In this document: positions 3,698-28,084 of the stretch, piece by piece
Position numbering within the stretch: position 1 is the stretch's first letter
Layout of the letters: every line of letters starts with the position of its first letter
Virus record (IMG/VR): IMGVR_UViG_3300011440_000047
Location: 1 to 31,868 of that record
DNA: 31,868 nt
Reading direction: 5' to 3' (one strand)
Source: a virus
Program-made: the position numbers and the translations under genes
The notes under the pieces: model-generated
What the model was told of the DNA's origin: nothing
Seen by the model: the letters and a program-made list of their open reading frames with translations, nothing else
The model's database searches: none

Positions 3698-5689
3698 TTA
3701 AATAGTTATGTTGAAGGTTAAACAAAAATTGTGCATAGCGTTACCGTACCTGATAATTTTGTCTCCCTGCGAATCTCTTAAGTTCCCTCTCGCTCCTGGC
3801 ATTTGGTAAGAACCAAAACTTACCCAACTATCAGTTGCAGGTCTTGCGTAAAGTACTTTTCCTCCTGCAGGACTTGAACTGCAAGCGATTGTTACAGTAT
3901 CATCTCCTGTTATAACTACAGAAGTTATACCTATATCTGCATTACTGCTATTTAATACCCTAAATCCACTATTTGTTTCAGAAGATACAATAGTTGTGTC
4001 CATTTTTAACGGCAAAACTGGTACATGAAACTTTATAGCTATATTGTTTCCTGTAACAGTAAATCTAATTGGATAAAGCGGATAAGGCTTTGAATTTCCA
4101 GTTAACCATTTGTGAACCATTATTCCATAATAAGCACCCTGTATTCTATCACTATCTGGTTTGTAATGCGCATTGTCAGCTTCATAATGAAGAATATAAG
4201 CCGGATTAGCCAATGTGAAAAAAGGATTACTTATCATAACGTCAAACTGGGCTTTAAATATTTTATCCTGGTCGTTATTTGCTTGTACACTTTCCTGATT
4301 TCCAATCCACATCAAAGTGTTTTTTTGAGAAGTAATTGGCGGAATATCAGAATTGTAATCTGCAATCAACTGATTGAGCATATCATAATATTGAGTTCTT
4401 GTAGTTCCTGCTGCAATATCCGCAACTCCATGAGTCCAAAGCATTATAGGAGCACTTATTGTTTTATCCAATTCAGCTGCTCTCTGAATAGCATAATTAG
4501 AATAAGATATTGCCCTTTCATAATAACCAGTTCCCCCGCCTTTACTTAAAGCTTGAATAGTAACACCGCCTACTCCAGGAGCCGCACAAAGAAATTGCCA
4601 ACCTTTGTTTTGCCAATGAGTAAAATTAACTTTTTCTATACTATCAATTACTGTTTCCACACATCCGCTCATTGGTGTTTCGCTGAAGCCAGCCCCGCCT
4701 TCAATAAGCGGCACAAGTGAATTGAAATTATTAGACACTGCCGGGTCTGGTCTCGGACCTCCGTTAAACATTAAGCTGTCGTAAATTTGAGTAGTGGTAA
4801 CAGGGTCTGCTGGACTTCCTGCACCTACTGAATTGCTTTGTCCGTAACTCATTAACAAAAGCATTTCTGTCGGAGCTCCATATATGAAATAAACTCCCTG
4901 AAATCCGCCAACTGTATCACCTTCTGGTTGAATAATTGTTCCAGTAATAACAATATCTTGAACTTCTATTCTTTTTGATAACACAGTTCCATCGTTTTTT
5001 ACACCAAATGCAAGATTCTTGTTACTGTCATTTACGCAAAGAGCGAAACCTATATTACGAGTTATATCTACATCACTTTCTACAACAAATTTATTAGCTA
5101 ATGCTGTGGCAATTTTTAATATTCCAGCAGAAGTTAACTTTAAACCAGCATACCCATTTATATCAGCAACAACAAAATCGCTACCATTTATAATAAAAAT
5201 AATTTCTGCTGTAGTGTCAGCCTTTTCTTTTACTGGTTGAAATTCGCTATCAAGAGCATATCCAGCTAAATCAATAGCCTGAACAACTTTAGTCCAATAA
5301 GTTCCATTGTAAATAAAATATACAAGTCCGCCTTCTGTTCCAGTCACAACAATAGGTACACCAACGTTGTTCAAAAAATTTGTATAAGTTCCAGCTTGCG
5401 TAGGAAAATATACAGCACCATCTTCAGCACCAATTGGAACTGTAGAAGGAATAGCTGAATTAAAATCTGCTTCAACTGCAATTGCATCTTTCAGTTGTTG
5501 TTCTGTTATTTGATAAGAAACTCCTGTTACAGGGTCTGCAACAACAAGTAAATGTTGGTCTGCAATGACTTCCATCACTGGCAATTCATTAACCTTTAAC
5601 CCAATTACTTCTGGAATACTCGTCCCTTCAATTCCAGTAAAGCTTGCAATTGTGATTTTCTGGTTGCTTTTTTGTGTTTTAAGTAACAT
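3698..5689 (-). CDS. Tail fibre with SGNH-type carbohydrate esterase domain
   Basis: A 663-residue protein. Residues 1-270 look like an elongated virion-attachment region with short repeated phrases (GGLVYFIYNGTYWTKVV). From about residue 276 an SGNH/GDSL esterase domain of the sialate O-acetylesterase type begins: block I is MSYGQSNSVGAG with nucleophile Ser285, a middle block is LWTHGVADI (418-425), and the last block is EADNAHYKPDSD with Asp505 and His508 completing the triad. Residues 540-663 form a C-terminal β-rich domain. Known relatives remove O-acetyl groups from sugars; on a tail fibre this would trim capsule or surface glycan during adsorption. It follows the Ig-bearing tail protein by two bases. 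The catalytic reading is solid; the substrate is inference. Confidence 0.8.
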   Translation of the reverse strand: MLLKTQKSNQKITIASFTGIEGTSIPEVIGLKVNELPVMEVIADQHLLVVADPVTGVSYQITEQQLKDAIAVEADFNSAIPSTVPIGAEDGAVYFPTQAGTYTNFLNNVGVPIVVTGTEGGLVYFIYNGTYWTKVVQAIDLAGYALDSEFQPVKEKADTTAEIIFIINGSDFVVADINGYAGLKLTSAGILKIATALANKFVVESDVDITRNIGFALCVNDSNKNLAFGVKNDGTVLSKRIEVQDIVITGTIIQPEGDTVGGFQGVYFIYGAPTEMLLLMSYGQSNSVGAGSPADPVTTTQIYDSLMFNGGPRPDPAVSNNFNSLVPLIEGGAGFSETPMSGCVETVIDSIEKVNFTHWQNKGWQFLCAAPGVGGVTIQALSKGGGTGYYERAISYSNYAIQRAAELDKTISAPIMLWTHGVADIAAGTTRTQYYDMLNQLIADYNSDIPPITSQKNTLMWIGNQESVQANNDQDKIFKAQFDVMISNPFFTLANPAYILHYEADNAHYKPDSDRIQGAYYGIMVHKWLTGNSKPYPLYPIRFTVTGNNIAIKFHVPVLPLKMDTTIVSSETNSGFRVLNSSNADIGITSVVITGDDTVTIACSSSPAGGKVLYARPATDSWVSFGSYQMPGARGNLRDSQGDKIIRYGNAMHNFCLTFNITI

Positions 5690-8600: not shown

Positions 8601-9651
8601 TATGCGGAATGAAGTGAATATCTACATCTCCCCAATTTGCACTTTCTGGAACTATAAACAAACCAAAAGAGCGCCCTGCTATGGCTGAAACTTCTCCATC
8701 AATATTTACTGTATATGTTTGCCATAAACCTTCTTCTTTAGTAACAAGAAAATTGAGTACTAATGGGTACATATCTCCAAAATTGTCTATAAGCCATATA
8801 CCAATTTCACGAGATTCACTCGAAGTCCCTGTTATACTTTCTACCATCCAATCAAAAGTATATTGTCCTCTTATCTTGAATGTCATATCACGAGTTGTCT
8901 TAATGAAATTCAATAGTTGCGGAAATTTAATTGCCCATTCACTTGGAGTTTGGTCTTGTTGTTCATTGTAATGAAATCCAAGATTTTGAGTTATAATTCC
9001 AAAAGAATCACCGTCTACATTAATTACATTTAGCGGCATCGTAAAAAACCTAAGCACACTATCTACTATTGAAGGAATTGGGGAAGGATTGATAAACTCT
9101 GAAGCCGTTGGCTGATAAGTGAACTTACCTCTTAATGTAATTCCGTCGAAGACCACAGGAATTGTCTTTGTATCTTGCGCGTTACAATTTATAGCGTACT
9201 TAATATCATCATTCTGACTAAGTATTCCCCAAGCCGAATTGTCAAGAATTGGAACAGAATAACCTGTTACAGTGTCTTTTGTTTGTGCCAAATCGAGTCT
9301 ACCATAGTAATACTTTTCGTATACCATACTATAAGGATTAAAACGATCTGCCTGAAAATACACTTCGCCAGCATATCCTCTACCAGTGTATTTCAAATAA
9401 CGAATAATATCAGCTCCATCTCCACAAAATAAAAAATTAATTGCTACTGTTCTGACTCCGCTAAAGTAATTTTTATTAGTAGCGAATGTCAGTTGCAATT
9501 CTTTCAGATTGGTAGGATTATCATTTAACGGAGTTTTAGTTGCACCAATAGAAATAACTACATGACCAATATTATTATAGGTTGAACTATAATAATTCCC
9601 AGATCTGTCTGTTAAATAACAATACCATTCTTTTGGAGAAGTTCTGTCCAT
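5692..9651 (-). CDS. Large tail-tip protein with three Ig-like repeats
   Basis: A 1319-residue protein encoded directly downstream of the tape measure and a small coiled-coil gene, the usual place for distal tail and tail-tip proteins. The N-terminal 570 residues look like the hub and baseplate part (MDRTSPKEWYCYLTDRSGNY at the start). Three Ig-like domains follow at about residues 578-670, 673-750 and 752-846; each carries the same phrase (NDKPVMRGVCQP, DNQPLIRGFLEAG, DNTPLLKGVAKP) and a later DxxGxWxY-type strand (ANGVFAY, GNCRWSY, VNGEWSF). The C-terminal 470 residues are unrecognised. The Ig-like modules probably bind host surface sugars weakly. The start codon overlaps the preceding stop (TAATG). 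Confidence 0.75.
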   Translation of the reverse strand: MDRTSPKEWYCYLTDRSGNYYSSTYNNIGHVVISIGATKTPLNDNPTNLKELQLTFATNKNYFSGVRTVAINFLFCGDGADIIRYLKYTGRGYAGEVYFQADRFNPYSMVYEKYYYGRLDLAQTKDTVTGYSVPILDNSAWGILSQNDDIKYAINCNAQDTKTIPVVFDGITLRGKFTYQPTASEFINPSPIPSIVDSVLRFFTMPLNVINVDGDSFGIITQNLGFHYNEQQDQTPSEWAIKFPQLLNFIKTTRDMTFKIRGQYTFDWMVESITGTSSESREIGIWLIDNFGDMYPLVLNFLVTKEEGLWQTYTVNIDGEVSAIAGRSFGLFIVPESANWGDVDIHFIPHISNIVVTADTKADSTIVYCKRPIDVLREVVGRASRNQFVVNSTYFEANPNIVLTCGDSIRNTSNSQIKTSFRDWFKAYDVDKFIAFKIDGKIISIEQVTDIYNPSTNLFDVGEVKDVEVEDAYEYLCNEIELNMNKQDYRHASGRFEFNGLNTFSIVQHNVKNKLSLVSPYRKDCYGMEFIRMDYQQDSSEDNSGDDTVFMVDISNEKIITQALVNNFVIIEINNSPLTPIIYYPFQNDIINNDKPVMRGVCQPSTDFNVYVDGVFDGTGTSDANGVFAYNIITSLSPFQENINSGIHTIEMTFSDLTGVVASRTITIVDSVTPQSIENIRNGDYLWDNQPLIRGFLEAGTTANLVVNGAAPVVVTGDGNCRWSYQSPILPEGLNTITLAGSTTTFNVQAWVNLPLITSFKEGFQIQDNTPLLKGVAKPLTTVKLYLDYYEDVLLGTTVAGVNGEWSFQVVPINKTDGTPLAPIPNGNHSISTGVFVDAVPVTIQGYKLNRPAYTSVEAVIDNSVFNTLLTPKRNLLTRMPYWKSIFYQQPDAVLKFETGDKNPGFAVTIDGIRTAENTDVKLADYPDSSFFYPYIFHCTVETPFFFADTVEHFSSGGLIKFKYQGIDINCLPIGKMSVEDVSRNVQRWSLLVSTLTPLENLMNLSNPGIIFNIMGDSIYRSDYNTLHMVKYNDDTEAPELHEDWFKNRNEQWVNNPQYVQKLELNEILVDQIITNFSAQRTTRLVVVNSCGVYVATYDYEDQTPSPVIAPEVMQQVAINLADLGEGDFYFVLFLDTFVAAISEMVSIKEKHYGTILIDGGSKKNTTGAVFSNGFRSKIRVEGLVEKWVGSIDTLINEDEIGNFDNLRSIATKKRTVLFGNGIGIPDWLYLKICNTILLEDLLIQGVGYVISNDARVEPVDKLPGYPMYYYSVDFTLKDNTTGFNFTEFKPYYQLPKDILLVDDKIYFDTGNGEPLLIK

Positions 9652-13564: not shown

Positions 13565-13584
13565 TTTCCACAAAAAGAAAAATA
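13565..13584 (-). promoter_or_regulatory. Shared leader element TTTTTCTTTTTGTGGAAA
   Basis: Minus-strand element ending 9 bases before the preferred ATG of the gene at 12968-13555. It is identical over 18 bases to the element upstream of the methyltransferase-like gene (22520-22538) and closely similar to those at 20522-20541 and 26434-26452. The GGAAAGG at its end could pair with the ribosome, and TCTTTTTG resembles a −7 element with A replaced by C. Confidence 0.45.
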
Positions 13585-13590
13585 CAAAAT

Positions 13591-14064
13591 TCATTTTTGA
13601 AATAGCTCATCTATAGTATCTTGCAAATCAGGCGCTATTTTATTCTGGAATAAAAAACGCTCCGATTCTGGACTTAGTTCGATAATATCAGGTCCGCTTC
13701 TTCCTTTAATGATCTCGATTAATGGAGAACGACTCCTAATTTCAAATTCGCCATTATCGTAAACAAATACATAAAGAGAGCGATAGAAGTTTCCAGACAT
13801 AAAGTTGGTTACATGACTTATGATAGAAGCAAGTCCGCTCATTTTCGCCTTCTTCAATATAGTTCTATGAGCATAGCCCTTAACTCTCACATTATTTCTC
13901 GTTAAGTACACAGGCTCTCCATTGCCATCAAACCCTCTTGCCAACTGATTTTGAACCATCTTCACTATTTCGGCTCTTTCAATAGTAATTTCCTTTTTAA
14001 TTTCCTGTTTAGCAAGAAATCCCTTGAGTCTCTTTTCAACTTCTTCAAATCCTTTAAATGGCAT
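13591..14064 (-). CDS. Hypothetical tail-module protein
   Basis: A 157-residue protein starting MPFKGFEEVEKRLKGFLAKQ. The first 50 residues are helical and charged. The middle (NQLARGFDGNGEPVYLTRNN) resembles a phrase seen in phage proteins of the tail-completion region, and the C-terminal half (FYRSLYVFVYDNGEFEIRSR) looks like a small αβ domain. It follows the major tail protein and the terminator at 14077-14109, so it is likely to be made in lower amounts than the tube protein. I cannot give it a firm function. Confidence 0.55.
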   Translation of the reverse strand: MPFKGFEEVEKRLKGFLAKQEIKKEITIERAEIVKMVQNQLARGFDGNGEPVYLTRNNVRVKGYAHRTILKKAKMSGLASIISHVTNFMSGNFYRSLYVFVYDNGEFEIRSRSPLIEIIKGRSGPDIIELSPESERFLFQNKIAPDLQDTIDELFQK

Positions 14065-20783: not shown

Positions 20784-21873
20784 TTTTCTTATATAAATGT
20801 TCATACAAAGCAAGTTGGGCAACATTAAGATAACCTTTTATATCCGTTTCTCCACCAGGAAGCTCTACCATGCCATCCATGTAACCAAGTCCAGCATTAA
20901 GAGTTGGGATTATATTGCTTTCTCCGCCCATGTTTTTTACAGAAGCAGTTTGGTTATAGATTCCACTACCGTGCTTGAACTTCATGTGGATATAATGCAT
21001 CTGAAGCTGCCACATAACTCCATCTGGCGCAGTCCATTTATCTCCGCCTGTGCTATCTGAAACACGAAGCCCATTGTTTCCGAGTACGCATCTTCCTTTG
21101 AAAAGATTAGCCATGTACTCTCCAATCTCGAAAGCTGTATCCAATTCCTGGAAGAATGGTTTAACGCAATGCTGAAATTCTGTGAGTGGAATACCTATAT
21201 TAGTTCGCTTGAATACTTGCATTATGTCAATGCAACTATAAATAGCAGAAAGCGTATTGGTTGGATTAGCTCCGGCAGCAATCATCTGATCTCTGCGAAC
21301 AGCATAGTCATCATTATTGCCTATTCCCCATATCATTGGCTCTCCAGTTCCGGTAGCAGAACCAGTTACAGTTATTTCGCTCAAATATGGGTCTTCGTCA
21401 TAGTGATCTGCGAGTTTTGTCATTAACCTCTCCCAATACATTAGCCAAGTATCTCCCCAAAAAGAAGGACAGTAATCTGACGCATCTTCGAATCCGGGAG
21501 TTGTCTCGTATCCACTTTTCTCGAATAAAAATTTGTCGCACTTGTTAATAAGCCATTCGCCAGATAACATTCCGGCAACTACACGAAGTTTAAACTTGAT
21601 ATTAAGTCCCCTTGACTTCATTTTCCTTGCCCAAGTTAGCATATCGTCAATCTGCGAGAAATCAAAACGATCTTCAGAAGGCCAGATATCTTTCACATGG
21701 ACGCGAATGACTATAACTTCTACGTATTTGTAAAAGTTCTCGTCTGGATTGTCCATATTATTTATGTAGTGATGCTGGCGAAGGCAAAGTCCTTGCAATC
21801 TAGGCTTTGAGTTGCTTGGCATATCAGGACAGCCTGTAGTTATTTTTAGTTTTATCACTTGTTCTTGTTCCAT
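20770..21873 (-). CDS. Glycoside-hydrolase-like TIM-barrel protein
   Basis: A 367-residue protein starting MEQEQVIKLKITTGCPDMPS. The order VEVIVIRVHVKDIWPSEDRF, then SQIDDMLTWARKMKSRGL and NIKFKLRVVAGM is the β-strand, W-P-x-E-x-x-F and helix pattern of TIM-barrel glycosidases of the GH42/GH5-like clans. A strand ending GSATGTGEPMIWG puts Glu178 where the acid/base often sits. A second candidate carboxylate is Glu232 in IPLTEFQHC; I cannot assign the nucleophile. There is no signal peptide. It lies in the head module between a methyltransferase-like gene and a holin-like gene. It may be a virion-associated sugar-cleaving enzyme or a lysis enzyme; a catalytically dead sugar-binding barrel is also possible. 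Confidence 0.55.
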   Translation of the reverse strand: MEQEQVIKLKITTGCPDMPSNSKPRLQGLCLRQHHYINNMDNPDENFYKYVEVIVIRVHVKDIWPSEDRFDFSQIDDMLTWARKMKSRGLNIKFKLRVVAGMLSGEWLINKCDKFLFEKSGYETTPGFEDASDYCPSFWGDTWLMYWERLMTKLADHYDEDPYLSEITVTGSATGTGEPMIWGIGNNDDYAVRRDQMIAAGANPTNTLSAIYSCIDIMQVFKRTNIGIPLTEFQHCVKPFFQELDTAFEIGEYMANLFKGRCVLGNNGLRVSDSTGGDKWTAPDGVMWQLQMHYIHMKFKHGSGIYNQTASVKNMGGESNIIPTLNAGLGYMDGMVELPGGETDIKGYLNVAQLALYEHLYKKNEPN

Positions 21874-21891
21874 AATTAGTTTTTACTTTAG

Positions 21892-22509
21892 TTATCCCCA
21901 TTGTTCTGCCATTGCTTTGGCTATTCCTAGAAATGTTTTGCTTCTTGCTATTGATGTTTTAGCTTTGTCGCTGTGTTTAGCTTCTTTATACCACTTCGGC
22001 ATTTTCTTGCCGCCAACTATAACAAACTCGCCTTTGTCCACATGAGTTTTCTGAGCGAATAAGTCATCTTCTTTAGCGTGAAACAGTTTCGGCAATCCGT
22101 TAAGCCATAAACAAGTTGGTTTCTGAGCTTTATCCCCAAAATAAAAAGGCTGGATAATTTGGTCTGGCTTTCTATATATTTCGCTCATAATTCCTATTGG
22201 ATTCTCGATACACCACTTAGGAATATTAGTCTTTGTAAACTTAAGGAAAAAGTCGATACCTTTTTGTTGCAAACCCTTTTTCTGTTTTAGTTCAAAGTGT
22301 TTAGCTCCTGAAACAGCTAAATGCGTACAAGGCGGAAACGCTATCATCATATCCCAATCTTGATCTAGAAGTGTTAGCACATCTACTTTTTTATGGTACG
22401 TTGGGTCTTCCCAGTTCGGATACAAATCGCAACTAATAACATAGTGCCCTCGTTCCCGAAAGGCTTTAGCTACTGTATTACTGCACTCGCAAGCTATTAA
22501 TACCTTCAT
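21892..22509 (-). CDS. Cytosine-methyltransferase-like protein
   Basis: A 205-residue protein. It starts MKVLIACECSNTVAKAFRER with a strand, Gly-less motif I variant and Asp at CDLYPN (SAM-binding region). FPPCTHLAVSG (58-68) carries the Pro-Pro-Cys of motif IV with catalytic Cys61, and WCIENPIG (101-108) is the E-N-P variant of motif VI. This short form of C5-methyltransferase-like proteins is frequent in phages and lacks the normal target recognition domain. It may methylate phage DNA against host restriction, or have become a different enzyme. The start codon is preceded by the GTGGAAA leader element at 22520-22538. Confidence 0.7.
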   Translation of the reverse strand: MKVLIACECSNTVAKAFRERGHYVISCDLYPNWEDPTYHKKVDVLTLLDQDWDMMIAFPPCTHLAVSGAKHFELKQKKGLQQKGIDFFLKFTKTNIPKWCIENPIGIMSEIYRKPDQIIQPFYFGDKAQKPTCLWLNGLPKLFHAKEDDLFAQKTHVDKGEFVIVGGKKMPKWYKEAKHSDKAKTSIARSKTFLGIAKAMAEQWG

Positions 22510-22647
22510 TTTTTCTGATTTTCCACAAAAAGAAAAATGTTCGATCTGGCTAAGGGAATGTTTTCATTAGGTCTCCGTTAAGGTTCACTAATCCTTTCGC
22601 TCTTCGACGAACATTGATCTGTAAATGTGCCAACGTTGGCTTTTTGG
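22510..22647 (-). other. Leader region with nested inverted repeats
   Basis: This 138-base gap between 22509 and 22648 contains, on the minus strand, ATGTTCG...CGAACAT arms that enclose AAGG...CCTT and ATTAG...CTAAT arms, so the transcript could form one nested structure ending just before the GTGGAAA element. A 25-codon frame (22577-22655, MSNQKANVGTFTDQCSSKSE) overlaps the upstream stop, but I cannot support it as a gene. A regulatory leader for the methyltransferase-like gene is the best reading. Confidence 0.35.
22520..22538 (-). promoter_or_regulatory. Shared leader element TTTTTCTTTTTGTGGAAA
   Basis: A minus-strand element ending about ten bases before the ATG of the methyltransferase-like gene. 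Over 18 bases it is identical to the copy upstream of the gene at 12968-13555, far too long to expect by chance in an intergenic position. Confidence 0.5.
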
Positions 22648-22839
22648 TTACTCATGGTCTATAATTGATACGTTTAATTCGATTTCTCCAGTCCAGTCTG
22701 CGCCTACGTTTGTAAAAGTAGAACCAGTACACCACTTAAATCCGCGTTCGACTCTTATCCAGTATCCACCACCGTAAGCTTTAAACTTTGTTCCTATCGG
22801 ATACTCTTTCACTGGTTTGTCTGCTTTTGTCCAACTCAT
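22648..22839 (-). CDS. Small conserved phage protein
   Basis: A 63-residue protein, MSWTKADKPVKEYPIGTKFK then GGGYWIRVERGFKWCTGSTF. The P-x-G-T-K-F-K, G-G-Y-W-I and R-G-F-K-W steps are a pattern I recall from small proteins of Bacteroidota phages, with a likely all-β fold. The function is unknown. It overlaps the large terminase gene by four bases (ATGA), so both are probably made from the same message. Confidence 0.6.
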   Translation of the reverse strand: MSWTKADKPVKEYPIGTKFKAYGGGYWIRVERGFKWCTGSTFTNVGADWTGEIELNVSIIDHE

Positions 22840-23957
22840 GTTCTGTAATAGTGTGTATACGCTCCATACCTTATTGCATCCAGTAAGTGATTGTGTCCAT
22901 CGAGCGGCTTGTTAGTAGGATTACCCATCTCATCCACCACCCAAATGTACTTTTCTTTTTCTTCCTTGATATGCCTCCCTTGATAATAAACATTGTACTC
23001 CTTCAACTTCTCGATTCCGGCTTTAACCGACCCGTCTCCTTTCTTTGCGGCAACTGCTCTAACATCGAGTTGCTTAAGTTGTTGAATTATATGAGGGTCA
23101 TGTTCGCAGTAAACTACACTGTTGTCATCGTACCCATGCGAGATGAGTAGCTCGTTAATCCTCTTAGCAGTCATCGCGCCAGTCTTGTAAGCTAACTCTT
23201 CGACGTACAAATCTGAATGTTTAATCAGCTCCATCTTCACTATTGCAGTCGGGTCGTTAGTATAACCAAAATCAATAGCGAAAAAAGGTTCCTCAAAAGG
23301 AAGAATGTCAACCATTTCCCAGTCTGGAAAGATCAACCCACGCACATTACCTGTGACTCCACGCGCATACACTTTCCACAGTTCTGGGTCTTTGATTCCC
23401 TCGATATCGGCGTGCTGGCGTTCTGATAGAAAAGGGTTGTGCTCATGCCAAGACCTAAAAAACACAGTGCCTGGTTCGTCTTTCACTTTTTCGTGCGCCC
23501 AAAACTTTACAGTTGGATTGTAGTCAATAATACTCACTTCACTACGCGAGTCCAGCTGCCACCACGTCATGTAGTCAAAGGTATTAGCCTCGTTGATAAA
23601 CAGAATATCCCTTTTCGGACCTCGCGCATCAAATTCCGTCTCGTAAGTTTTGAACTCCATCACCGCACCACTGTTAAAAATAGTAATGTGGTCGCTCTTC
23701 CGGTGCTGCTTGATACAACCACTAAATTCTGGGAGCACGTACCGCTCGAAATCGCGCATCGCTCCAGCTCGTAGGTGCGGGAAGCTTTTCGACGTTACTG
23801 TAATGGTCTTAACTGATTGCGCCGCTACCGTTGCTAAAGCTGCCAGTATGTTAACCGTCTTACCGCTGTACTGACCACCTTGATGGATGATGCGTCTCGA
23901 CTTTGGTATAGCATCCAACGTGTCCTTGAAAATAACCGATGTCTTCACAATATACAA
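22836..23957 (-). CDS. terL: Terminase large subunit
   Basis: A 373-residue protein at the short end for this family. The ATPase half has Walker A GGQYSGKT (27-34), an adenine-binding QGG context before it, Walker B DILFINE (117-123), and a coupling region around IIDYNPT. The nuclease half has FFAIDFGYTNDPTA with catalytic Asp229, EHD around 284-286, and DGHNHLLDAIRYG with Asp360. It pumps DNA into the prohead through the portal and cuts concatemers. The gene is separated from terS by the repeat region and a three-gene cassette, whereas the two subunits are usually adjacent. Confidence 0.93.
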   Translation of the reverse strand: MYIVKTSVIFKDTLDAIPKSRRIIHQGGQYSGKTVNILAALATVAAQSVKTITVTSKSFPHLRAGAMRDFERYVLPEFSGCIKQHRKSDHITIFNSGAVMEFKTYETEFDARGPKRDILFINEANTFDYMTWWQLDSRSEVSIIDYNPTVKFWAHEKVKDEPGTVFFRSWHEHNPFLSERQHADIEGIKDPELWKVYARGVTGNVRGLIFPDWEMVDILPFEEPFFAIDFGYTNDPTAIVKMELIKHSDLYVEELAYKTGAMTAKRINELLISHGYDDNSVVYCEHDPHIIQQLKQLDVRAVAAKKGDGSVKAGIEKLKEYNVYYQGRHIKEEKEKYIWVVDEMGNPTNKPLDGHNHLLDAIRYGAYTHYYRT

Positions 23958-24064
23958 TAGTTAAATTGATTGGACAAATAATTTTATCAACAGGTCGAAA
24001 GTTTCAGAAGGAGATGTGGGGGGATAATGGGCGACCAGGCAATTTTAACTTTTTTTTAACAGAA
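23958..24064. other. Intergenic segment with a G6 tract
   Basis: This stretch upstream of terL has no gene. On the plus strand it contains GAAGGAGATGTGGGGGGATA (24007-24026), with a G6 run that is conspicuous in this A+T-rich sequence, and an eight-T run near 24051-24058. A cohesive-end or packaging signal is one possibility because of the terminase gene next to it, but nothing proves it. Confidence 0.25.
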
Positions 24065-24102
24065 AATTAACACAACCTTAATTTGTTAAAGTTGTGTTAA
24101 TT
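24061..24102 (-). terminator. Terminator behind the unknown 255-aa gene
   Basis: A perfect 12-base inverted repeat AATTAACACAAC / GTTGTGTTAATT (24065-24076 and 24091-24102) with a 14-base loop lies 13 bases after the stop of the gene at 24116-24883. On the minus strand the second arm runs into TTTTCTG. The stem is A+T-rich, so it may be weak, but the position fits a terminator that closes the cassette. Confidence 0.6.
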
Positions 24103-24115
24103 CCAGGTTTAACAA

Positions 24116-24883
24116 TTATTTAGCAGCCTCGATAGCGTAACTACCATCTGCTTGTTTACGAAATTTGTACCTGTCAATAATAACGCGAACAGTCCCGTTC
24201 AATTTTGTGAAGTCCTTAACATCGTCCTTTACCGTAGGGTACATTTGCAAAAGTTCGTCATGTGTAGTTCCCGATACTAACGCCTGATAGGCTTCTGCGC
24301 CCTTCGTTCCGGGTTTTTCTGGGTTTTCCCCGTTCAATGTTTCACGTGAAACACTAGCGCCAATTAGTTTCGAAACATCCTTTCCGGTTGCGCCCTGTTT
24401 AGCGTAAATTGTAGGTTTGCCGAAAAATGCCGCAAACGAGGTTTTTAACGTATCCTTAACATCTTTGCTAGCAGCCAGTAGCTCATCCAATTTTTCCGAC
24501 GGTATACCTAATTTATCAATCAGGTCATAACGTGCAACATTTAACGAATCATTAACAGAACGTTCAGCCTTGAGTAACTCTAACGTTTTGTTAAAATCCA
24601 CAATTGCCGTATCAGCCTTTTTAACTAACAGTGATAAGCCCTCGGTTTCGGGAGTCGGTTCGAAACCATTAGCCGAAAAAACGGTAAAATAATTTTGGTT
24701 CGCAGTTTTGAGGTCGGTTTTCAATTGTGCTAACGTCTGTTCGTTAGCCTCGTCCTCAATTTTGCGTTGTTCCAAAATCGGTTTCAAAAACTCAGGAACG
24801 TTAGTTTCCGCCGGAACGTCAACTGTTAAATTTTCGTTAATAACCTGCTCAGGTGTGCTAGAGCTCGCATTTTGTTTTGCCAT
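24116..24883 (-). CDS. Hypothetical protein of the terS-terL insert
   Basis: A 255-residue acidic protein read from MAKQNASSSTPEQVINENLT (ATG at 24883, preceded by ATTAAAATTAAAAAC). The first 25 residues are disordered and Ser/Thr/Glu-rich. Residues 30-160 are mostly helical (AQLKTDLKTANQNYFTVFSA). The C-terminal 70 residues form a separate globular part (GTKGAEAYQALVSGTTHDEL through VRVIIDRYKFRKQADGSYAI). I do not recognise it. It has its own −7 element and terminator and is not part of the usual packaging set, so it may be an accessory gene or, less likely, a minor head protein. Confidence 0.7.
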   Translation of the reverse strand: MAKQNASSSTPEQVINENLTVDVPAETNVPEFLKPILEQRKIEDEANEQTLAQLKTDLKTANQNYFTVFSANGFEPTPETEGLSLLVKKADTAIVDFNKTLELLKAERSVNDSLNVARYDLIDKLGIPSEKLDELLAASKDVKDTLKTSFAAFFGKPTIYAKQGATGKDVSKLIGASVSRETLNGENPEKPGTKGAEAYQALVSGTTHDELLQMYPTVKDDVKDFTKLNGTVRVIIDRYKFRKQADGSYAIEAAK

Positions 24884-24907
24884 GTTTTTAATTTTAATAT
24901 TGAACCA

Positions 24908-24915
24908 CAAAAATA
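24908..24915 (-). promoter_or_regulatory. −7-like element TATTTTTG
   Basis: On the minus strand TATTTTTG fits TAnnTTTG and is followed by TGG, 24 bases before the ATG at 24883. No −33 TTTG is seen at 19-20 bases, so it may be a weak secondary promoter inside the cassette. Confidence 0.4.
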
Positions 24916-24949
24916 ATAAAGATTTCGATACGTTGTTGTTAATGGATTG

Positions 24950-25105
24950 TTAAATGTTACTGGGCAATGTCACATATTTTTTTTCGCCATGTGACTTGCG
25001 TTTTTTCGGTTTATTGATAGCATTCGTTAGTATGGTTGCAAATATAGCAACCATACCAGAGGCGAAAATAAAAATGCTAACGTCTACTAGTATCTGATTA
25101 ATCAT
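24950..25105 (-). CDS. Small single-pass membrane protein (51 aa)
   Basis: The frame from ATG at 25105 to TAA at 24950 encodes MINQILVDVSIFIFASGMVA and continues IFATILTNAINKPKKRKSHG to a short polar end. Residues 4-27 form one membrane helix, and the following KPKKRK is a strong cytoplasmic anchor under the positive-inside rule. Its start lies one base after the stop of the gene at 25107-25304, so the two membrane proteins are coupled. The function is unknown; a membrane role in superinfection exclusion or lysis is possible. Confidence 0.6.
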   Translation of the reverse strand: MINQILVDVSIFIFASGMVAIFATILTNAINKPKKRKSHGEKKYVTLPSNI

Positions 25106-25106
25106 A

Positions 25107-25304
25107 TTAGAAATTTTTTATATCAGTGATTAAATTGGTTATTGCTACATAGGTAAGGTATATTGCGGAAAATAAACCTATACCAATTAATACATATGCA
25201 ATGTTAGCGTGTATTTCATACATACATTGTATGCACATCCAGTAATTAAAAACGATCAATCCTATAAACGGAACGTACTTGATAAATGGAACTAATTTTT
25301 TCAT
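25107..25304 (-). CDS. Small two-helix membrane protein
   Basis: A 65-residue protein from ATG at 25304, MKKLVPFIKYVPFIGLIVFN at the start. Helices are predicted at about residues 9-30 and 36-58 (ANIAYVLIGIGLFSAIYLTY). It begins 22 bases after a −7 element (25326-25333) and is the first gene of the three-gene cassette that separates terS and terL. Holin-like shape, but no direct evidence for lysis. Confidence 0.6.
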   Translation of the reverse strand: MKKLVPFIKYVPFIGLIVFNYWMCIQCMYEIHANIAYVLIGIGLFSAIYLTYVAITNLITDIKNF

Positions 25305-25325
25305 GTTATTTTTATTTTGTTCCCA

Positions 25326-25333
25326 CAAATGTA
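25326..25333 (-). promoter_or_regulatory. Bacteroidota-type −7 element TACATTTG
   Basis: On the minus strand TACATTTG matches TAnnTTTG and lies 22 bases upstream of the start of the gene at 25107-25304. The −33 position reads ATTT rather than TTTG. It is the likely promoter of the cassette between terL and the repeat region. Confidence 0.5.
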
Positions 25334-25411
25334 CTCCAGGTAACGTTAATAAAATGTTAATGTGATATATATTTGTTTTTATAATACCTGGCACTTTTCA
25401 CCATATATATG

Positions 25412-25543
25412 TAACAGGTGCGCGCTCGGGAATATACGGAAAAAAAACATTAAAAACTCATTAGAATCCTGGTTTATGAAATATTTAACATTCGGCACTC
25501 GTAACGTAAAAAACTAGCACCTGTTAATATCGTTGTAACAGGT
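25412..25543. repeat. Inverted repeats around TAACAGGTGC / GCACCTGTTA
   Basis: TAACAGGTGC at 25412-25421 is repeated inverted as GCACCTGTTA at 25517-25526. The latter also forms a local hairpin, ACCTGTTA (25519-25526) with TAACAGGT (25536-25543) around a nine-base loop. The stretch has no convincing gene on either strand. Confidence 0.6.
25451..25523. repeat. Duplicated module, copy 1
   Basis: This copy consists of TAAAAACTCATTAGAATCCT followed by GG (25451-25472), a 36-base spacer, and AAAAACTAGCACCTG (25509-25523). The same two elements recur in the same order and orientation at 25716-25780, with 20 of 22 and 15 of 15 bases identical, but with unrelated spacer sequence. Confidence 0.7.
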
Positions 25544-25677
25544 TGAAAACCAACTCGTTACACATAGTAAAAAAACCAAATTTCCCCAAATTTCAACGAT
25601 CGGCAAGGCACCTTGGTAACCATATCAAAAACGATCAAGTGCCGGTAAAACGCCCTAAAATGCGAAATAAACACCAT

Positions 25678-25710
25678 GCCATCCTGGCACCTAGCGCCTG
25701 CCAGGATGGC
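25678..25710. repeat. Perfect 12-bp GC-rich hairpin
   Basis: GCCATCCTGGCA (25678-25689) and TGCCAGGATGGC (25699-25710) are exact reverse complements around the nine-base loop CCTAGCGCC. The stem is much more G+C-rich than its surroundings. There is no T run behind it on either strand, so it is not a standard terminator; it could be a protein-binding cruciform, an RNA structure or a packaging or replication signal. Confidence 0.75.
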
Positions 25711-25715
25711 GTAAT

Positions 25716-25780
25716 TAAAAAATCATTAGGATCCTGGATTTTAACAGAAATTATTTGGTAATCACAAAAACTAGCACCTG
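25716..25780. repeat. Duplicated module, copy 2
   Basis: TAAAAAATCATTAGGATCCT followed by GG (25716-25737) and AAAAACTAGCACCTG (25766-25780) repeat the layout of copy 1 at 25451-25523. The copy is followed by GTAGTTCCTGG, another CCTGG word of the type scattered through this region. Confidence 0.7.
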
Positions 25781-25821
25781 GTAGTTCCTGGATATTGTTA
25801 ACAATTTTTTAACATTTTAAA

Positions 25822-25853
25822 TTTGGAAAATTTAAAAAAATTTCGTAACTTTG
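25822..25853 (+). promoter_or_regulatory. Plus-strand promoter candidate in the repeat region
   Basis: TTTG (25822-25825) and TAACTTTG (25846-25853) are separated by 20 bases, matching the Bacteroidota −33/−7 consensus and spacing. It points rightward, against all genes, into the CTAG-rich repeats. If active, it would make a non-coding or antisense transcript. The second copy of the block (25999-26023) has GAACTTTG in place of TAACTTTG and no −33. Confidence 0.45.
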
Positions 25854-26050
25854 TAGCTGGCTAGTTTTTTTTCCATTAACAAAGCATTAACACTAGCTAA
25901 TGTTAGCTAGTTTTGGCGCAAAAATACTAACTAACGCTAGTTTTAAATTTTAATCTTTTTCTAATGAGCATTAACACCAAATTAGCATTTTTTTCGAGAA
26001 CTTTGTAGCTGGCTAGTTTTTTTGACGTTAACAAAATTTTAACACTAACT
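25847..26050. repeat. Paired direct repeats with GTAGCTGGCTA
   Basis: AACTTTGTAGCTGGCTAG plus a T run starts at 25847 and again at 25999. In both copies it is followed by TTAACAAA and then TTAACACTA about 25-35 bases later, giving two 50-base diverged direct repeats 152 bases apart. The 11-mer GTAGCTGGCTA occurs a third time at 26361-26371. Confidence 0.8.
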
Positions 26051-26353
26051 AACGCTAGTATACGAAACTCATCGTAGTTCGGCGCAACTAACTAACGCTA
26101 GTTTTTCAGCACCCATCGCAAAAAAACTAACTAACGTTAGCCAGTGTTAATCTCTTGTTAATAACATAACTTTAACAACTTTCTAACATATATTCGTGTA
26201 TGCGAACTTATATAAAAAATCTAGATACTAATGAGTGTTAGCCGAGCTCCCGAGCCGAGACTAACTAGCGTTAGCCAACCTGTCAGACTAACTAACGCTA
26301 GCGAGCCGCCCGACAAACTAACGCTAGTTAGCCCGAAACTAACGTTAGTTAGC
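25892..26353. repeat. Cluster of CTAACGYTAG near-palindromes beside terS
   Basis: Eight copies of the ten-base core CTAACG(C/T)TAG or its reverse form lie at 25931, 26049, 26092, 26131, 26265, 26292, 26318 and 26339. Five are extended at the left as ACTAACTAACGCTAG or the T variant, and the last is a perfect 14-base palindrome AACTAACGTTAGTT (26338-26351). A related perfect inverted repeat, ACTAGCTAA-TG-TTAGCTAGT, lies at 25892-25911. Three sites have a GCGCAA or CGCAA word just to their left. CTAG, usually a scarce tetranucleotide, occurs about eleven times in 560 bases. The region lies just downstream of the small terminase gene and has no supported gene. Confidence 0.85.
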
Positions 26354-26433
26354 ATTTTCGGTAGCTGGCTATGGCAGGTACCTACAGGCGCCCACAAATC
26401 CAGATTTACCTTTTGGGATTTACCTTTTGAAGA

Positions 26434-26452
26434 TTTCCACAAAATGAAAAAT
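26434..26452 (-). promoter_or_regulatory. Shared leader element TTTTTCATTTTGTGGAAA
   Basis: A minus-strand copy of the GTGGAAA element, one base different from those at 13565-13584 and 22520-22538. Unlike them it has no ATG behind it. It is followed by two copies of AAAAGGTAAATC and then the CTAG-rich repeats, so it may drive or process a non-coding transcript. Confidence 0.45.
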
Positions 26453-26466
26453 GCAAAAGTCGTTTT

Positions 26467-26949
26467 CTAAATAGTCGTTTCTGGATTTCCCTTTTCGTAT
26501 TCGCTCCGACTCAATTCAGGTCCGTTCCCGACTACCTCGATGTGTATTGTAGCACCACTACCGCCACCTTCAGCCTCGCGTCCCAGGTCTAATTTCCTGA
26601 TAGTCATATTGGCATTGAATATACCTACCATGCTGTACTCGAAATTCTGCGCATATATCACCTGTAATATCTTCTGCGCAACCAAGTGATACTCACCAGC
26701 CTGCGAATTCCGCGCTATGTCATTCATGTACTGTACTGTTATACCACAGTGCAAGCACAATGCCGGTAGGTTGAATGGTCGAGGATACTTTATATCAACT
26801 ATATCTCCCGTTTGCTTTATCATTTCCTGCTTGTATATAGGATTAGCCTCACACCACATGAAATACTCAACTGCGTCATCCCATAAATCCTCGGGTTTGT
26901 TCCCGCTGGCTCTGGACTTGATCATCCAGTGATTAATAGTGTTGTCCAT
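26467..26949 (-). CDS. terS: Terminase small subunit
   Basis: A 160-residue protein. LWDDAVEYFMWCEANPI (22-38) and PRPFNLPALCLHCGITVQYM (56-75) follow the pattern of the phage DNA-packaging family typified by P22 gp3 (a W-x-x-A-x-x-Y-F-x-W-C-x-x-N-P helix, then P-Y/F-x-L-x-x-L-C-x-x-L/C-G-I-T as helix-turn-helix). The middle is helical (oligomerisation) and the C-terminal 35 residues, with GGGSGATIHIEVVG, look flexible and would contact the large subunit. It recognises the packaging site on phage DNA. The CTAACGYTAG cluster starts about 110 bases downstream of its stop, which makes that cluster a candidate binding site. Confidence 0.8.
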   Translation of the reverse strand: MDNTINHWMIKSRASGNKPEDLWDDAVEYFMWCEANPIYKQEMIKQTGDIVDIKYPRPFNLPALCLHCGITVQYMNDIARNSQAGEYHLVAQKILQVIYAQNFEYSMVGIFNANMTIRKLDLGREAEGGGSGATIHIEVVGNGPELSRSEYEKGNPETTI

Positions 26950-27294: not shown

Positions 27295-27500
27295 ATTATA
27301 CTATACCCTCCTTCAAGGTTGTGACTAACTTTGAATCTGCGACGTGTTCTTGTTTTGTTTAGTTTACCTATTAATTCTTCTACATTTTCGGCATTTACCT
27401 TGTAAAATTCTCCAATTTCAGCGAAATATAGGAGCTTATTTGAGATAATTGTTAATTCTTTTAACATATGCAAAATAGTATATATATAAATTTTCCGCAT
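27279..27500 (-). CDS. Hypothetical protein upstream of VRR-NUC gene
   Basis: A protein of 73 residues if started at ATG 27500, or 62 residues from ATG 27467 (MLKELTIISNKLLYFAEIGE). The first start has GGGAG a few bases before it, while the second has only an A+T-rich leader. The sequence has an N-terminal helix, a basic centre (NKTRTRRRFKV) and a C-terminal strand (GGYSIIWRTK), which might bind nucleic acid. It overlaps the VRR-NUC gene by 16 bases and is the first gene left of the palindrome cluster at 27519-27819. Confidence 0.55.
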   Translation of the reverse strand: MRKIYIYTILHMLKELTIISNKLLYFAEIGEFYKVNAENVEELIGKLNKTRTRRRFKVSHNLEGGYSIIWRTK

Positions 27501-27518
27501 AATAGGCTCCCAAACATG

Positions 27519-27819
27519 GTAGCAACCTCATAACGTATTGATTTTCAATGTGTTACGTGGAAAGTTGCAAGGTTGTAACCGAGAATGATGCATATGGGTG
27601 TGCATATAATAAAATATACTATTATTATAGGTACATATATAAAATAGAAATATATGTAGAAAATAGGCATTTTTAAAATGAATGGGTGTTAGAGTATATA
27701 TACCATTACAACCTATATAAATTCCATATAACATATTGATAATCAATAACCTACAAAGTTGTAACCGTACATTTAACGTAGCAACCGTATAACATATTGA
27801 AAATCAACAACCTACGTGG
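27519..27819. repeat. Palindrome and repeat cluster beside HTH gene
   Basis: Three copies of a site with core TTGAwwwTCAA lie at 27531-27555, 27728-27754 and 27789-27819. The last two are identical in 25 of 27 bases, beginning ATAACATATTGA and ending ATCAAYAACCTAC. Copies one and three are also flanked alike by GTAGCAACC on the left and ACGTGG on the right (31 of 42 bases match), so the whole 300-base gap is bracketed by diverged direct repeats. GTTGTAACC occurs at 27572 and 27758. The gap is very A+T-rich and has no supported gene. An operator array for the adjacent helix-turn-helix protein is likely. Confidence 0.7.
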
Positions 27820-28084
27820 AATCACCTCGACCACCTCGTGCAACCTTAACCAATTTTTCACTTTGTGGAACTGACTTTAGAGCTTTCACCGAATTGCACT
27901 TAACTTTAGCAATATCCTCGCGCGCTTGTTCATCATTTGTCATTTTAAGAAAATGCGAGAATCTGCCTCGTTTGATGTGCCTAATGGTACGCAAGGAGAC
28001 GCCCCAGGAGTCAGCGATTTCCTGGGGCGAGCGGTCTCCTGCGATAACCTCATGGATTAGTTCGGCGGAATTTATTAAGTGCAT
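27812..28084 (-). CDS. Small helix-turn-helix DNA-binding protein
   Basis: A 90-residue protein. Residues 18-45 (RSPQEIADSWGVSLRTIRHI, then KRGRFSH) are a textbook helix-turn-helix: the A-x-x-W/F-G-V-S turn is followed by the recognition helix R-T-I-R-H-I-K. The C-terminal half is basic. Such small phage proteins act as regulators or as DNA-binding parts of larger complexes. Its stop lies inside the third palindromic repeat and its start overlaps the upstream gene by 35 bases. The adjoining palindromes suggest that it controls the genes to its left, including the nuclease and terS. Confidence 0.8.
   Translation of the reverse strand: MHLINSAELIHEVIAGDRSPQEIADSWGVSLRTIRHIKRGRFSHFLKMTNDEQAREDIAKVKCNSVKALKSVPQSEKLVKVARGGRGDST

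Follow-up and report, generated by a model that had tools for sequence, protein, structure and literature searches.

Between the small terminase gene (terS) and the large terminase (terL) cluster of a Bacteroidota-type phage lies an array of short, partly palindromic word sites, which may represent the type-specific iterons of a replication-origin region (probability roughly 0.4, as judged from sequence comparisons). The array itself is real. Its place, where related phages have a different word, resembles a landing site for a rapidly evolving phage protein, most probably an initiator of replication, and the position between terS and terL fits selection acting on the DNA. The window, i.e., the whole stretch of DNA that was analysed, is a 31,868-bp IMG/VR contig (G000).

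Sites, layout, and genomic setting of the array

An exact search of either strand recovered eight copies of CTAACGYTAG (25931, 26049, 26092, 26131, 26265 on the minus strand, 26292, 26318, and 26339), the number given in the first-pass annotation, and a ninth core at 25897 (CTAATGTTAG) differs from the consensus by one mismatch. The exact cores are confined to the array within their own 31.9 kb record, and the reversed control pattern had no match there. With up to one mismatch, 18 core matches were detected on both strands versus 2.55 in dinucleotide shuffles (sd 1.84, max 6), and all 18 fall within 25897-26348. In most cores the match continues to ACTAACTAACGYTAG, an incomplete version of CTAA-CTAA-CG-TTAG-TTAG (longer palindrome CTAACTAACGTTAGTTAG); the window word is a spaced partial palindrome, found in both orientations, and the perfect 14-bp palindrome already recognised from the letters was confirmed at 26337-26350 (centre 26343/26344). 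CTAG is indeed scarce, being four-fold under-represented (22 copies in the window versus 88 expected), with 21 of the 22 inside 21800-26327, and the array interval holds 10 copies rather than the eleven or so estimated before.

The cores form two sets (five and four) around mostly AT-rich DNA at 26141-26264, which is a feature of PICI/SaPI-type iteron origins, and the GC content drops to ~0.24 at 26160-26239 inside this gap. The variable spacing of up to 134 bases described earlier was correct, but the 134 bp is the gap between the two core sets. The last core ends at 26348, 119 bp from the end of terS (26467). Rfam returned no structured-RNA match, intrinsic terminators and sigma-70 promoters showed no excess in the array, and no dif-like site beyond chance was found in the window.

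Read leftwards, the gene order comprises small early-type genes, an endonuclease-like gene, terS, the array, a 95-aa gene, a 264-aa gene, terL, and genes for a methyltransferase, the portal, and the major head protein (Table 1). The genes to the left of the array had been taken for an accessory cassette, but both the 95-aa and the 264-aa gene are syntenic in relatives. Among named phage records, the best TerL matches were Bacteroides and Phocaeicola phages at 34-37% identity.

Table 1. Features in and around the array, with positions in the window
Feature	Position	Strand	Basis
terL	22836..23957	-	
264-aa gene, fast evolving; carries words in several relatives	24116..24910	-	
TTAAC pair, -7 box 38 bp downstream, upstream of 264-aa gene	24938..24953	-	
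95-aa gene, syntenic in L011 (47%)	25107..25394	-	
TTAAC pair, -7 box 27 bp downstream, near start of 95-aa gene	25345..25360	-	
Conserved noncoding element (CGTTGAAATTTGGGGAAATTTGG... and imperfect hairpin), 81% identical in L010; parts in L012 and L026	25531..25593	-	
TTAAC-N6-TTAAC pair; -7 box TAACTTTG 48 bp downstream	25798..25813	+	
TAGCTGGCTA, imperfect palindrome related to the word, right after plus-strand -7 box	25854..25863	+	
TTAAC-N6-TTAAC pair abutting first palindrome (1-nt gap)	25876..25891	+	
First set of word sites, cores 25897, 25931, 26049, 26092, 26131	25892..26140		
TAGCTGGCTA, second copy, after second promoter-like element (GAACTTTG)	26006..26015	+	
TTAAC-N6-TTAAC pair abutting site with core 26049	26028..26043	+	
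Gap between sets, mostly AT-rich, candidate melting region	26141..26264		GC profile
TTAAC-N6-TTAAC pair abutting site with core 26131, other strand	26146..26161	-	
Second set of word sites, cores 26265, 26292, 26318, 26339 (last is the 14-bp perfect palindrome)	26265..26350		
TAGCTGGCTA, third copy	26362..26371	+	
terS, GP3_package (P22 gp3-type) small terminase	26467..26949	-	Pfam family
Second noncoding block upstream of g113 and terS, imperfect inverted repeats, GTAAC..TTGAT.ATCA type, clustered in relatives	27500..27811		

Other words at the same position in environmental relatives

An IMG/VR scan for two neighbouring copies of CTAACTAACGYTAG (the paired 14-mer) retrieved L008 alone, a near-identical contig, array included. 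Among close relatives (TerL 82-87% and TerS 72-76% identical to the window), L010 (TerS 72%) and L011 (TerS 76-77%) keep the gene order and the long terS-terL interval, and the window word is absent from both. Several relatives carry saturating words of their own in this interval, namely AGCT, CAGCCA, CAGCCAAAG, AGTAC/AAAGCA, and GCGAT, with 88 AGCT versus 8.5 expected in L011, 34 CAGCCA versus 0.7 expected in L012, CGCGAT in L013, AGTACT and AAAGCA in L016, and AGCAGCCAAAG repeats in L021 and L022. The word-profile correlation between the window and L011 was 0.18, i.e., the words are unrelated. Element-specific repeats that differ in relatives, another feature of PICI/SaPI-type iteron origins, are present. 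The first-pass annotation had named absence of the array from close relatives as part of what would refute its reading; the word is indeed absent, but the position is not vacant, since several relatives have other words there.

With a stricter expectation, the interval reached z values of ~10-30 in most word-bearing loci, versus a control maximum of ~7 in same-size intervals of the same group. In a sliding survey, 20 of 27 environmental-group loci reached the set word criterion with their top-scoring word in the interval upstream of terL. These loci are partly non-independent, several of them belonging to identical or nearly identical phages; of the more distant prophage loci, only one reached the criterion. 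The words are almost confined to the terS-terL interval in the environmental group (14 of 15 in G002, most of 29 in G001), and in relatives they span ~2.5 kb, including a coding gene.

Words within coding DNA

In L011, the 264-aa gene contains 38 AGCT, versus a mean of 8.8 (max 17) for codons resampled from terL usage and 20.4 (max 28) after permutation among the synonymous codons of the gene itself, and an excess of the main word in this gene was likewise detected in L010, L012, L016, L013, and L021. In all of these phages, the choice among synonymous codons favours the word more than terL usage would predict and, mostly, more than permutation of the gene's own codons does, and alanine codons match the local word (GCT 36/43 in L011, GCA 34/52 in L021, GCG 13/22 in L013). 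The effect is weak in the 264-aa gene of the window (CTAAC 6 versus 1.7; CTAG not significant). Since the word excess in relatives goes beyond the need of the protein, it indicates selection or bias on the DNA itself, and the synonymous-codon effect points to DNA-level selection over normal codon choice in a phage gene.

Comparison of L021 with L022 gave a conservation of 0.890 for word bases versus 0.915 for other noncoding bases, a count that speaks against the visual impression that word sites are specially conserved. The word copy number is kept in this pair (14/13 and 17/14), and within the 264-aa gene the word bases are all identical (68/68, p 0.03). Word turnover with density maintained is the fair reading of these two phages.

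The saturation of coding DNA in relatives is poorly explained by an origin, an operator, or packaging. It is possible, if doubtful, that these viruses form a Bacteroidota phage family whose terS-terL interval is a cis zone saturated with one word. Each phage would impose its own word there, in coding as well as noncoding DNA, to the point of shaping codon choice in the gene between, and the word would be swapped wholesale between close relatives, as if under strong pressure for phage-specific self-recognition (in replication, packaging, or rival exclusion) through a novel reader and function.

Two word blocks in Bacteroides and Phocaeicola phages

In Bacteroides phages with homologous terminases, the TerS gene lies directly 3' of a noncoding block. 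Most sampled blocks carry group-specific words, including CTATGCA (BF1-2, BT2), ATCTATC (B. theta group), AAAGATG/TGTCAAA (BO668P1, BKR1), CTGTGCA (EMB/BU), and GGAACA (BV), and a few, e.g., those of BS162P3 and Parabacteroides phages, yielded no clear word. In five complete genomes (EMB2, BF1-2, BT638P5, BV737P2, and, to a weaker degree, BKR1), copies of the word gather in two paralogous blocks, one upstream of the early operon and one upstream of terS (late operon); over 130-260 bp, the two are 71-89% identical. Within them, the words lie on either side of an AT-rich core, as in the published layout of PICI origins (PMC6092414), and both blocks end in promoter-like sequences. In EMB2, for example, CTGTGCA occurs 11 times in 34 kb, 5 + 5 of them in the two blocks with AT-rich cores. 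The blocks lie about half a genome apart in near-antipodal positions (50-56% of the genome; L049, L050, L175, L176, L177). GC skew does not change sign at the blocks and gives no support for a bidirectional origin; as a separate observation in the same five records, it tends to peak just before the terS block and to be lower after it.

The two-block layout was not seen in the environmental group, where the terS-terL interval is the one block. The arrays of the environmental and the Bacteroides phages are linked, as far as the comparisons suggest, by related terminases, position, and layout rather than by demonstrated homology.

A putative replication origin and its candidate initiator

In the origin reading, two sets of the phage's own word flank an AT-rich stretch. 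Copying would begin once an initiator encoded by the phage has bound the words and opened this stretch; the most likely initiator would be a VapE-type helicase, with specificity residing in its C-terminal domain. The TTAAC-N6-TTAAC pairs described below would be a separate element, serving as activator sites for promoters of this control region, and the promoter system would be arranged around the origin iterons.

VapE or a VapE homologue is encoded in all five complete Bacteroides/Phocaeicola phages, with the Pfam VapE-like_dom in both of those tested (BF1-2 and BKR1), and VapE matches were found in 11 of 13 environmental records related to the window. The window contig seems to be truncated on the early-gene side and yielded no VapE gene, so that the initiator of the window itself was not seen. 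The VapE C-terminus is 91-100% identical within the BV GGAACA class and 84-100% within the CTGTGCA class, versus 32-38% between them; for EMB2 and BV737P2, most VapE core blocks share 60-82%, TerL 81%, and the SNF2 helicase 71%. BF1-2 and BT2, which have the same word, share 98.7% in the VapE C-terminus, and this identity falls to ~50% in the ATCTATC-word phages. This covariation of C-terminus and word class is suggestive of VapE as the reader, but it is not proof because word class coincides with clade and TerS N-termini diverge too (48-60% between EMB2 and BV737P2). In environmental relatives, VapE C-termini vary in general, and the covariation is therefore not specific there.

Several observations weigh against an origin. 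The words of relatives, over ~2.5 kb and into a coding gene, extend more widely than usual iterons. In known PICI replicons, the initiator gene is followed immediately at its 3' end by the origin, whereas the array lies beside terS, between terS and terL, and VapE is located away from this interval in relatives. Moreover, the Bacteroides phages have two blocks, both with promoter-like ends and with unchanged GC skew sign, the divergence of VapE C-terminus and word also follows phage clades, and word bases in L021/L022 are not more conserved than other noncoding bases.

Known replicons offer partial parallels. PICI/SaPI-type origins pair a Rep helicase with iterons in two sets, one on each side of an AT-rich region (PMC6092414, which also mentions the P4 ori). 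The array is similar in its two sets of short element-specific repeats flanking AT-rich DNA, in the VapE-type helicase encoded by relatives, and in a specificity that seems to diverge with the C-terminus of this helicase; it differs in lying beside terS, in a phage, instead of beside the initiator gene, and in words that are partly palindromic and that in relatives cover 2.5 kb plus a coding gene. The ori/crr replicon of phage P4 has the alpha primase-helicase and two cis regions with shared iterons. Bacteroides relatives likewise have one word in two cis blocks per genome and a putative helicase-type initiator, whereas the environmental group has the terS-terL interval alone, with putative origin activity. 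Furthermore, lambdoid ori carries type-specific iterons inside gene O, and here too type-specific repeats are able to sit in the coding DNA of a fast-evolving gene; unlike gene O, this gene encodes a protein (264 aa) with no family match, beside terL.

The directly observed basis of the origin reading consists of the sites and their two-set layout, the substitution of other words in relatives, the phasing of the TTAAC pairs, the occurrence of VapE in relatives, and, in Bacteroides phages, VapE C-termini that diverge between word classes. We infer that the words are bound by protein, that VapE reads them, and that the region is an origin.

TTAAC pairs and a possible operator array

The first-pass annotation had passed over both the TAGCTGGCTA copies and the TTAAC-N6-TTAAC pairs of the array region. 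Twelve such pairs, at exactly 11-bp spacing, occur in the window interval, with none at 8-10 or 12-13 bp and a shuffle mean of 0.04; two further pairs lie at 2366 and 30906, and relatives have 18 (L010), 8 (L026), or fewer (L011, L012, L013). The promoter-like sequences here carry TAnnTTTG, the Bacteroidota form of the -7 box. Where present, this box is often 27, 38, or 48 bp downstream of a TTAAC pair, on both strands, at distances that are one helical turn apart, and the phasing recurs in the window, L010, L011, L012, and L026. The pairs look like candidate activator sites of phage promoters.

A phage regulator bound to the palindromic words could, beside an activator on the TTAAC pairs, control promoters at the early/late boundary. 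This would agree with the strict spacing and phasing of the pairs, with the three window pairs that abut a word with a 1-nt gap, with the TAGCTGGCTA directly after both plus-strand -7 boxes, and with the Bacteroides phage word blocks that precede early and late operons. The pairs are phased to several -7 boxes. The promoters, however, are close to only some words and far from most, and most pairs lack a -7 box at 27, 38, or 48 bp. In addition, the words of relatives fill coding DNA, their density far exceeds the need of repression, and one operator for early and late units would be odd in a temporal switch. An operator array is considered rather unlikely.

Packaging and other candidate readers

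The array may also mark the place where packaging starts (a pac zone), with either TerS or the 264-aa protein, the latter acting as a specificity subunit, as its reader. Known pac sites, such as those of the P22, SPP1, and P1 type, lie in, adjoining, or near terS, and the array shares this location. The near-confinement of environmental-group words to the terS-terL interval, the membership of TerS in the P22 gp3 family, and the place of the 264-aa gene directly upstream of terL, fast evolving and word-bearing in relatives, are in keeping with such a zone. Outside support for a headful (pac) nature of the group comes only from the distant relative EMB2, which has a terS-adjacent word block and is headful by PhageTerm, with circularly permuted DNA (PMC9584325).

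In a TerS-bound pac zone, the TerS recognition region would be expected to vary with the site, whereas the TerS proteins of the window and L011, 76-77% identical, have the same helix-turn-helix but for one residue. TerS is therefore an unlikely reader of the words, because this helix-turn-helix is almost unchanged between phages with unrelated words. The second block of the Bacteroides phages, half a genome away, is a further difference from P22/SPP1/P1-type sites, and the predicted C-terminal helix region (LNGT.R) of the 264-aa protein is conserved across different words. A pac zone is for these reasons unlikely. TerS binding, the first idea of the initial annotation, is weakened, and its alternatives, an iteron origin and an operator array, fit better.

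The 264-aa protein is 21-47% identical to its counterparts in L010-L026, and its AlphaFold model (mean pLDDT 70.8) predicts a disordered N-terminus and a long helical hairpin, followed by a small C-terminal domain in which helices and strands are ordered as in winged helices. Foldseek gave no matches at E ≤ 0.001 in PDB or BFVD, and none were found in Pfam (E ≤ 0.1) or PHROGs (E ≤ 0.01). The whole-model structural comparison (VIA, PDB) returned a helical-bundle background, above which a T4-type small terminase (Z 8.5) did not stand out, and it says little on the C-terminal domain. The 264-aa protein is still a candidate reader. A 90-aa helix-turn-helix protein (27812-28084) was rejected as reader, having a homologue in L010 but not across the group.

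A local mutational or repeat-expansion process (slippage or simple-sequence drift) with no dedicated reader is very improbable, for although simple repeats, (CAGC)n or (CAAAGCAGC)n, make up several words and the L021/L022 word bases are no better conserved than others, the window has a spaced partial palindrome whose copies run in either orientation, synonymous codon choice favours the word in L010, L011, L012, L013, L016, and L021, the word number is kept in L021/L022, and the word interval recurs at the same place in many phages.

Significance and further noncoding elements

For Bacteroidota phages of the gut and the environment, the titles and abstracts of the papers searched described no such array or element. 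If the words are type-specific recognition sites, they would form a natural record of very fast co-evolution of DNA word and reader, with many solutions at one locus. Such sites would also locate the control of the origin or of packaging across a large group of these phages, and would allow a simple prediction of which phages and satellites can share replication or packaging machinery.

Other elements were also noted. A second array, of imperfect hairpins (GTAACTNNTTGATNATCA), lies upstream of the endonuclease-like gene and terS in the window (27500-27811) and in relatives (G004 24348-24704, G001 8819-9179, G002 606-776, G003 38872-39086, and G006 5081-5416); its word is much alike across the phages tested, unlike the word of the terS-terL array, and other phage-specific words (GACCAC, GTGGTA, ACTACA) cluster close to it. 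Dif-like (XerC/XerD) sequences occur in the terS-terL interval of L011 (1984-2011, identical to E. coli dif at 23 of 28 positions), L010 (2206-2233 and 2280-2307), and L026 (3445-3471), those of L010 and L026 sharing an identical 27-bp stretch that includes TTATGTTAAGTAG; they could mark dimer resolution or integration at host dif. The terS gene of L010 (1334-1801) has one in-frame stop at the position of a Gln in the window, which may reflect sequencing error, mutation, or recoding. By eye, a common TATACGCGCG...TATATA element was seen at 25400-25440 of the window and at the equivalent places in L010, L011, L012, L013, L021, and L026. Finally, a 33-bp sequence after terS (26434-26466) recurs (88%) at 13565-13597 and in relatives, and looks like a dispersed intergenic element.
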